Source of the DNA: Spartobacteria bacterium
Lineage (GTDB): Bacteria; Verrucomicrobiota; Verrucomicrobiia; Chthoniobacterales; Chthoniobacteraceae
DNA length: 64,000 nucleotides
Assembly (NCBI GenBank): GCA_021324825.1
Contig: JAJPII010000002.1
Location: forward strand, 1 to 64,000
Direction of reading: 5' to 3'
Shown here: one piece after another, positions 30,429-57,205 of the stretch
How positions within the stretch are numbered: the stretch's first letter is position 1
Layout of the letters: each line of letters begins with the position of its first letter
The notes under the pieces: generated by a model
Seen by the model: the letters and a program-made list of their open reading frames with translations, nothing else
Database searches by the model: none
What the model was told of the DNA's origin: nothing
Translations under genes and position numbers: made by a program

Positions 30429-32177
<1,749 letters not shown>

Positions 32178-54808: not shown

Positions 54809-55651
54809 ATGGCTCTCAAGACATTCAGACCATTGACCCCGGTGCTGCGCTTCAAGGCGCTGCCGAAGTTCGACGAGATCACCAAGTCGAAGCCGGAGAA
54901 AAAGCTCGTCCAGACCATCAAAAAAACCGGCGGGCGGAACAACCAGGGGCGGCTGACCTCGCGCCACATCGGCGGCGGGCACAAGCAGAAGTACCGCATC
55001 ATCGACTTCAAGCGCAAGAAGCGCGGCGTGGAGGCCGAAGTGCTCGCCATCGAGTACGATCCCAACCGCACCGCGCGCATCGCCCTCCTCCGTTACGCGG
55101 ACGGCGAGAAGAGCTACATCATCGCGCCCACCGGCCTGGCCGTCGGCGCGAAAGTCACGGCGGGCGAAGACGCGCCGCCGGAGATTGGCAACGCGCTTCC
55201 GCTGAGCGCCATCCCGCTCGGCGCTTCCATTCATAATGTCGAACTGATTCCCGGGCGCGGCGCGCAGATCGCCCGCGGCGCGGGCCAGCAATGCATCCTC
55301 AACAACCGCGAAGGCGGGTACGCCCTCGTGCGGCTCCCCTCGGGGGAAATCCGCAAGATCAACGAAACGGCTTACGCCACCGTCGGCCAGGTCGGCAACA
55401 TCGACCATATGAACGTCTCCAGCGGCAAGGCGGGCCGGACGCGCTGGCTCGGACGGCGCCCCCACGTCCGCGGCATGGCCATGAACCCAATCGATCACCC
55501 GATGGGCGGCGGCCAGGGCAAGAGCAAGGGCGGCGGCGGGCGGCATCACCCGGTCAGTCCGTGGGGCCAGCTTGCGAAGGGATTCAAGACGCGCAGAAAG
55601 CACAAGCCGAGCAACCGCTTCATCGTCGCCCGGCGCAAAGCGAAAGGCTAA
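54809..55651 (+). CDS. rplB: 50S ribosomal protein L2
   Basis: 280 residues from ATG 54809. Conserved [20 protein letters not shown], the RNA-binding core [20 protein letters not shown] and the peptidyl-transferase region [20 protein letters not shown] with the conserved histidine. Essential for subunit association. Confidence 0.97.
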
Positions 55652-55663
55652 CCGGAGACAACC

Positions 55664-55942
55664 ATGGGCAGATCACTAAAAAAGGGGCCGTTCGTCGACA
55701 TGCATTTGCTCGAGAAAATCGACAAGCAGACGGAATCCGGAGCCAAGAAACCGATCAAGACCTGGTCGCGGCGTTCGACCGTCACGCCCGATTTCGTCGG
55801 GCACACGTTCCTGGTTCACAACGGCAAGATTTTCAACTCGGTGTTCGTCACGGAAAACATGGTCGGGCACAAGCTCGGCGAGTTCTCCCCGACGCGCGTC
55901 TTCAAGAAACACGGCTCCCACACGGCGAAGGTCACCAAGTAA
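55664..55942 (+). CDS. rpsS: 30S ribosomal protein S19
   Basis: 92 residues, [20 protein letters not shown] start and [20 protein letters not shown] end. Forms the S13/S19 pair in the head. Directly followed, after seven bases, by a non-ribosomal gene. Confidence 0.96.
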
Positions 55943-55949
55943 CGACACC

Positions 55950-56732
55950 ATGCGCATCAAGGCCGGACTTGCAGTCGTTGTTCGGCTTTTCCTCATCATG
56001 ACCGGCTTATCGACAACGCTTTTTGCGGCGGACACTGGCGACCTGGACATCGAGTACAGCGAAGCCAAGATGACGCTTGACGCCGTGACGCAGGAAAACG
56101 TCGCGCTCAGGAAGCAGCTTGCCGACTCGCGCCAGTCGATCAAGACGCTCACCGACAGCCTGGCCATTTCCAACAGCGAGGCCGAAGTCTTCCGGCGCGA
56201 ATGCGGGGCCTTGAAGCTGCGGATGGAAGCGCTGGGCCTGGATGCGGGCGGCGACCGGAGCAAGCTCGAGGAGCGCCTCTTGAAAGCCGTCAGCGACATG
56301 CGCGTCGTGGAGGAGGAAAAGGCGAAGCTGAAGGAACAGGTCGTCGCGCTCACGGAAGCCATCCTGCGTTTCGTCAAGACCGCCGTCACGACCGACGCCG
56401 ACGCGCGGATGGCCGTGGAGCAGCAGGTCCGCGCCGCCAACGAATTGCTCGGCGTCAAGATGCGCGCCGTGGAAGCCCCCGAACCCGCCGGCACGCTCAT
56501 GGACGGCAGGGTCATCAGCGTGAAGGAAGAGTTCGCGCTCGTGGTCGCCAATCTCGGCGCGAACCAGGGCGTCCGCCTCGGCATGCCGTTCCAGGTCTGG
56601 CGCGGCGAGGATCGCATCGGCCTGGTCAGGGTCGTCGATGTCCGCGAAAAGATCGCGGGCGCGGTCATCCAGGACCTCGTTTCCAAGGAAAAAATTCAAG
56701 TCGGCGATCGCCTGAAGGTGGATGCCCGGTAG
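55950..56732 (+). CDS. Secreted coiled-coil protein inserted in the S10 operon
   Basis: 260 residues. Signal peptide (VVVRLFLIMTGLSTTLFAAD), a coiled coil (about 40-145; VTQENVALRKQLADSRQSIK, then RVVEEEKAKLKEQVVALTEA), and a C-terminal beta domain (about 170-260; GRVISVKEEFALVVANLGAN, QGVRLGMPFQVWRGED, IQVGDRLKV). That domain is like the C-terminal module of FlgT-type or similar envelope proteins. It lies between rpsS and rplV with seven- and eight-base gaps and the same GC-rich codon use, so it is expressed with the ribosome genes. Function unknown. Confidence 0.8.
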   Translation: MRIKAGLAVVVRLFLIMTGLSTTLFAADTGDLDIEYSEAKMTLDAVTQENVALRKQLADSRQSIKTLTDSLAISNSEAEVFRRECGALKLRMEALGLDAGGDRSKLEERLLKAVSDMRVVEEEKAKLKEQVVALTEAILRFVKTAVTTDADARMAVEQQVRAANELLGVKMRAVEAPEPAGTLMDGRVISVKEEFALVVANLGANQGVRLGMPFQVWRGEDRIGLVRVVDVREKIAGAVIQDLVSKEKIQVGDRLKVDAR

Positions 56733-56740
56733 AGCAGCTT

Positions 56741-57205
56741 ATGCAGATAACATCCACCTACAAATACGCGCGCATGTCGGCCTTCAAGGCGAGGGATGTC
56801 ACCCGCGCCATCCAGGGGCTGCCCGTCGCTTCCGCCCTGGACATCGTCCGTTTCAGCCCGAAGAAAGCCGCCGCCCTCGTCGAGAAGACATTGAAGAGCG
56901 CCATCGCCAACGCGGAGAACAACAATGACATCCGCGCCGACGTTCTCGTCGTGAAGGAAGCGACCGTCGGCGAAGGCCCCACTTTGAAGCGTTCGCAGCC
57001 CAAGGCGCGCGGCAGCGCCGGGCCGATCCGCAAACGGACGAGCCACATACGCATCGTCCTGACGGACGAGATCAAGATCGAGACGCGCGAAACCAGGAGG
57101 CAGGCCGCAAAGTCAGCCGGGAAGCCCGGGAAGCCGGCGAAATCCGCCGGGAAAGCGCGCCGCCCGGCAGCGACGAAGAGCGAAGAACACACCACGGAAG
57201 AATAA
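56741..57205 (+). CDS. rplV: 50S ribosomal protein L22 with basic C-terminal extension
   Basis: 154 residues against the usual 110-120. The core has YARMSAFKARDVTRAIQGLP and the tunnel hairpin GPTLKRSQPKARGSAGPIRK, ending SHIRIVLTDEI. Residues about 120-154 are an added Lys/Ala/Pro/Gly tail (KSAGKPGKPAKSAGKARRP) likely to bind rRNA or stay disordered. Start ATG 56741 eight bases after the secreted coiled-coil gene. Confidence 0.95.
   Translation: MQITSTYKYARMSAFKARDVTRAIQGLPVASALDIVRFSPKKAAALVEKTLKSAIANAENNNDIRADVLVVKEATVGEGPTLKRSQPKARGSAGPIRKRTSHIRIVLTDEIKIETRETRRQAAKSAGKPGKPAKSAGKARRPAATKSEEHTTEE

Follow-up and report, generated by a model that had tools for sequence, protein, structure and literature searches.

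Few gene orders in bacteria are as stable as that of the S10 ribosomal operon, and so a gene lodged inside it that does not encode a ribosomal protein (r-protein) raises the question of what it encodes, how it came to be there and whether its position ties its product to ribosome synthesis. Such a gene lies in the stretch of DNA analyzed here (hereafter, the window), which comprises 64,000 nucleotides of a Spartobacteria bacterium contig (GCA_021324825.1, JAJPII010000002.1, positions 1 to 64,000). The original prediction, made from the sequence of the window, placed a 260-residue open reading frame (ORF) between rpsS and rplV with seven- and eight-base spacings, and this was confirmed: the ORF, which we call gene X, runs from an ATG to a TAG over 260 codons, between the rpsS stop at 55942 and the rplV ATG at 56741 (Table 1). 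Its codon use had likewise been said to match that of its neighbors, and indeed, measured against the r-protein set, gene X had a codon adaptation of 0.66, which falls within the r-protein range (0.60-0.80, with a single outlier of 0.49) and at about the 95th percentile of the window's other long ORFs, some of them possibly spurious. A search of positions 55600-56900 turned up nothing resembling a promoter or a terminator. That gene X is a member of the S10 operon is thus well supported by its 7- and 8-nt spacers, the lack of a promoter or terminator match in this region and its r-protein-like codon use. An assembly join at this point was excluded, as the window's contig spans 104 kb and the same gene order is found in dozens of independent assemblies.

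Table 1. Features of the rpsS-rplV region, in coordinates of the window.
Feature	Position	Strand	Size	Basis or remark
rpsS (S19), upstream neighbor	55664..55942	+	92 aa	79-91% identity in most same-order relatives; gene order kept
rpsS-to-X spacer	55943..55949	+	7 nt	From sequence
Gene X, predicted exported protein with FlgT_C-like C-terminal barrel	55950..56732	+	260 aa	Same-site homologues throughout; dN/dS 0.08-0.34
Predicted N-terminal signal peptide	55950..56030	+	Residues 1 to about 27	Hydrophobicity/AxA heuristic; low pLDDT at residues 19-28
Predicted helical/coiled-coil region	56043..56447	+	Residues 32-94, 103-144, 150-166	AlphaFold2; length varies, absent in some lineages
Predicted C-terminal FlgT_C-like beta-barrel	56496..56726	+	Residues 183-259	Pfam PF16538, FlgT fold matches, iterated HMM
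X-to-rplV spacer	56733..56740	+	8 nt	From sequence
rplV (L22), downstream neighbor	56741..57205	+	154 aa	PF00237, E=1.5e-36

Elsewhere in the window, positions 31700-32013 of the plus strand matched the Rfam family 5_ureB_sRNA (77.8 bits; gathering threshold 40). This match is antisense to a 582-aa ORF (30429-32177, minus strand) and may merely reflect conservation of the urease gene.

We then examined the rpsS-rplV interval across Verrucomicrobiota. A search of relatives gave matches in 68 of 97, and when the 50 stronger matches were fetched, every one of them adjoined r-protein genes of the S10 operon, 48 showing the full rpsS-X-rplV order; a weak match (L053) adjoined such genes as well. 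In a scan of the genomes of ~85,000 species, X was found beside S10 r-protein genes in all of the best 80 loci, which include those of the cultured Chthoniobacter flavus Ellin428 (L086), of Spartobacteria bacterium LR76 (L131) and of an Akkermansiaceae genome (L141). Named genomes closest to the window were Spartobacteria/Chthoniobacterales, in keeping with its placement in Verrucomicrobiota. The spacer between rpsS and X had a median of 14 nt over 143 unique loci, and an iterated HMM recognized the C-terminal barrel domain in the ORF immediately 3' of rpsS in 128 of 128 relative loci that include rpsS. A further sample of the class and the phylum was drawn via rpsS, blind to the presence of X. 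Where rplV followed in this sample, the rpsS-rplV interval either measured 1-122 nt or held a barrel-domain homologue, with three degenerate exceptions; all intervals above 350 nt but one (L154) contained a barrel-domain ORF. Among the 54 family-level groups whose interval could be read, a hand tally of family codes counted X in 34, five of these families lying outside the class; about 20 (~one third) lacked X, with rpsS and rplV adjacent; in five further families of other classes, no recognizable rplV lay within reach of the loci. The site of gene X is therefore conserved, and the gene is far from absent in all relatives, the outcome that had been named as fatal to the original prediction.

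One of the three degenerate intervals (L154, 552 nt, with no recognizable homologue) belongs to genus g12, in which X is otherwise present, possibly representing fresh decay or replacement. The other two occur in single-contig genomes of 0.9 Mb (G054, L158, 313 nt; and G045, L159, 148 nt), and a domain profile search detected the barrel domain nowhere in either genome. Larger relatives from the same genus, namely G061 and G069, have X matches. Judged from their 0.9 Mb, G045 and G054 are probably obligate symbionts. With some 20 of 54 families lacking X, and with the interval degenerate in these two 0.9-Mb genomes, the gene is not essential across the phylum. A metagenome-assembled genome labeled Proteobacteria (L106, RFPR01000056.1) carried a spartobacterial S10 operon including X, and is probably misnamed.

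In 13 close pairs, the dN/dS of X ranged from 0.08 to 0.34, mostly above that of rpsS or rplB, a range that, together with conservation, ruled out a chance ORF and by which X is clearly under purifying selection. We compared the distribution and phylogeny of X with a ribosomal tree built from rplB, rpsS, rplV and rpsC of 132 loci. The presence and absence of X required 9 changes on this tree, the tree of X itself needed 15 changes to recover 15 family groups, one more than the minimum of 14, and the distances of X correlated with the ribosomal distances (rho 0.49, 0/500 permutations). The simplest reading, on a tree whose root is not fixed and on which gain and loss are not formally separable, is that a single insertion, at an early stage of verrucomicrobial evolution, placed X between rpsS and rplV, after which it would have been inherited vertically within the S10 operon and repeatedly lost.

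Such a history bears on the main rival to the explanation that we favor below, namely that X is an ordinary periplasmic protein, an ancestral copy of which landed in the S10 operon, where the site would confer high constitutive expression with no specific functional link to the ribosome. The repeated clean absences, which leave rpsS and rplV adjacent, fit this possibility; yet one would expect a passenger of this kind to have moved or disappeared more often than X has, the exact junction being kept in about two thirds of families and the best 80 matches all lying beside r-protein genes. We regard it as rather unlikely, and return to it where the protein itself bears on it.

Turning to the protein, the original prediction described a signal peptide, a coiled coil and a C-terminal beta domain. 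An N-terminal hydrophobic segment, a coiled coil and a C-terminal beta domain are all present in the window's protein, but the coiled coil is not its core, since several lineages do without it. Export is supported by sequence criteria: among 143 unique X homologues, 88% harbor a strongly hydrophobic 10-mer (KD above 1.9) within the first 45 residues, compared to 6% of r-proteins, with a positive residue ahead of it in 85% and an AxA-like site behind it in 97%, these statistics being heuristic and not those of a trained predictor such as SignalP. The lipobox pattern was matched by 8 of the 143. An AlphaFold2 model, built with 63 homologues, predicted the helices listed in Table 1 and six strands over residues 186-257, the beta part having a pLDDT of 92-98; the overall pTM was 0.42, leaving the relative arrangement of the parts unsure.

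The homologues fall into three size classes, full (205-321 aa), medium (160-194 aa, as in genus g5, which belongs to the same family as the window) and short (111-123 aa), the last consisting of signal and barrel only (L208, L232, L234, L235, L237 and L238). As whole groups keep only the signal and the barrel, the coiled coil is optional, and the free drift of its length is a further point in favor of an ordinary protein carried along in the operon. The conserved functional part of X is thus the C-terminal FlgT_C-like barrel of ~77 residues, the constant parts being this barrel and the N-terminal signal. The most conserved positions are mostly glycines (G203, G207, G211, G237 and G252), along with residues such as R218, R232 and D253.

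Profile and structure searches with the C-terminal domain, which the original prediction had proposed as a check, returned FlgT_C, FlgT, TsaP and MreC. The isolated barrel scored 29.3 bits against Pfam FlgT_C (PF16538; gathering cut-off 27) and the whole protein 23.8 bits, and only 9 of 34 domain members matched this family at E 0.05. Foldseek matches included the LPHT ring (8z5n, E=1.1e-4), FlgT (3w1e, E=3.5e-4) and MreC (2j5u, E=6.4e-4; 9a5z, E=1.4e-3), and also many N-terminal barrels of F1-ATPase, so that the fold does not specify a function. In a barrel profile search, the best match among solved structures was TsaP (3jc8, E=8.6e-4).

The resemblance to FlgT, the flagellar H-ring protein of Vibrio, lies in predicted export and in a C-terminal barrel of the FlgT_C type. 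X differs in lacking the N and M domains of FlgT, the rest of the protein being coiled coil or absent, and in being encoded in a ribosomal operon. Pfam and fold matches to FlgT would be expected if X were its orthologue in the flagellar H-ring, but unlike FlgT systems most X carriers have no flagella: FlgH, taken as the marker, is absent in the window's genome (G000) and in 25 of the 29 genomes that carry X. Of the 13 genomes that do have FlgH, 9 are without X. Orthology with FlgT is therefore extremely improbable.

TsaP, a secretin-associated protein of type IV pili, is periplasmic, as X is predicted to be, and its standing as the best solved-structure profile match raises the possibility that X is an accessory of outer-membrane secretins (of type IV pili or type II secretion) whose barrel packs around the secretin channels. 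All 11 of the X-bearing genomes that were tested indeed contain secretins. However, most X-less genomes keep them too, among them the free-living G043, G052, G134, G177, G155 and G173 with 2-6 matches each, X has no match to the peptidoglycan-binding LysM domain of TsaP, and its gene is linked to no pilus or secretion gene. The idea that X is an essential partner of secretins was not supported, as these persist without it; a TsaP-like role is possible and not obligatory, secretins being present with and without X, and we consider it distinctly unlikely.

In MreC, as in the window's X, a helical stalk is followed by a beta-barrel, which together with the two Foldseek matches would suit a scaffold acting at the cell-wall elongation complex. 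The Pfam MreC barrel core was matched weakly by three domain members, and not by the window protein. X differs from MreC in consisting of a single barrel with an optional stalk, and in coexisting with true MreC, which we found in 51 of 52 genomes (in the window's genome at G000:C19:5280-5726); a replacement of MreC by X was rejected on this ground. With true MreC beside X almost everywhere, a coiled coil that is dispensable and a signal of the cleavable type with no clear membrane anchor, an MreC-like role for X is quite improbable. The one genome of the 52 with no MreC match was G120, a complete 2.7-Mb genome of genus g37; this genus carries M60 peptidases and is, by inference, Akkermansia-like.

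A domain profile search of 18 larger genomes further identified, in 17 of them, a barrel-domain protein encoded away from the S10 operon, whether X was present or not. This second Verrucomicrobiota protein (G000:C45:91113-91340, L051; also L052 and L054-L062) is similar to X in its ~260 aa, its coiled coil, its N-terminal hydrophobic segment and the same C-terminal FlgT_C-like domain, and differs in being encoded outside the S10 operon and in occurring in free-living genomes both with and without X. It may share the task of X, which would make X partly redundant, and the existence of a related protein elsewhere in nearly all of the larger genomes searched again speaks for an ordinary periplasmic protein that happened to settle between rpsS and rplV.

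Weighing the position, conservation, selection, losses and domain of X, all of which can be read from sequence, we tentatively favor, at somewhat less than an even chance, the explanation that X is a periplasmic barrel protein of the scaffold or ring type, made in a dose that tracks ribosome synthesis. According to this proposal, the predicted N-terminal signal would direct X to the Sec pathway for release into the periplasm, where the FlgT_C-type barrel would serve as a docking or ring-forming module and the helical stalk, where present, would oligomerize or space this module, as suggested by the comparable domains of FlgT, TsaP and MreC. X would be translated from the r-protein transcript, using codons much as r-proteins do; its amount should thus follow ribosome synthesis, supplying envelope scaffold in proportion to growth. 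That growth rate and envelope building might be linked through this locus, as had been suggested, is a reasonable proposal that follows only from operon membership; as X is absent in ~one third of families, any such link would be dispensable.

A bolder version, which we deem unlikely, is that the S10 operon of Verrucomicrobiota couples ribosome synthesis to envelope growth, either because X serves as an envelope scaffold that acts according to its dose or because X, exported before it has left the r-protein transcript, anchors this transcript to the membrane, keeping ribosome production and surface expansion proportionate. If this were so, loss of X would uncouple the two.

We found no description of gene X in the open literature searched on the S10 operon of Verrucomicrobia, ribosomal operon insertions, FlgT and TsaP, or under Akkermansia locus tags. 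The gene is directly testable, as Chthoniobacter flavus Ellin428 is a cultured carrier, and transposon and deletion tools are available for the related Verrucomicrobiota species Verrucomicrobium spinosum (PMC12283558). A nonribosomal, predicted exported protein at one S10 junction in most sampled families would naturally connect ribosome production with the cell envelope, which is unusual, and in much of Verrucomicrobiota the synthesis of an envelope protein probably keeps pace with that of ribosomes.
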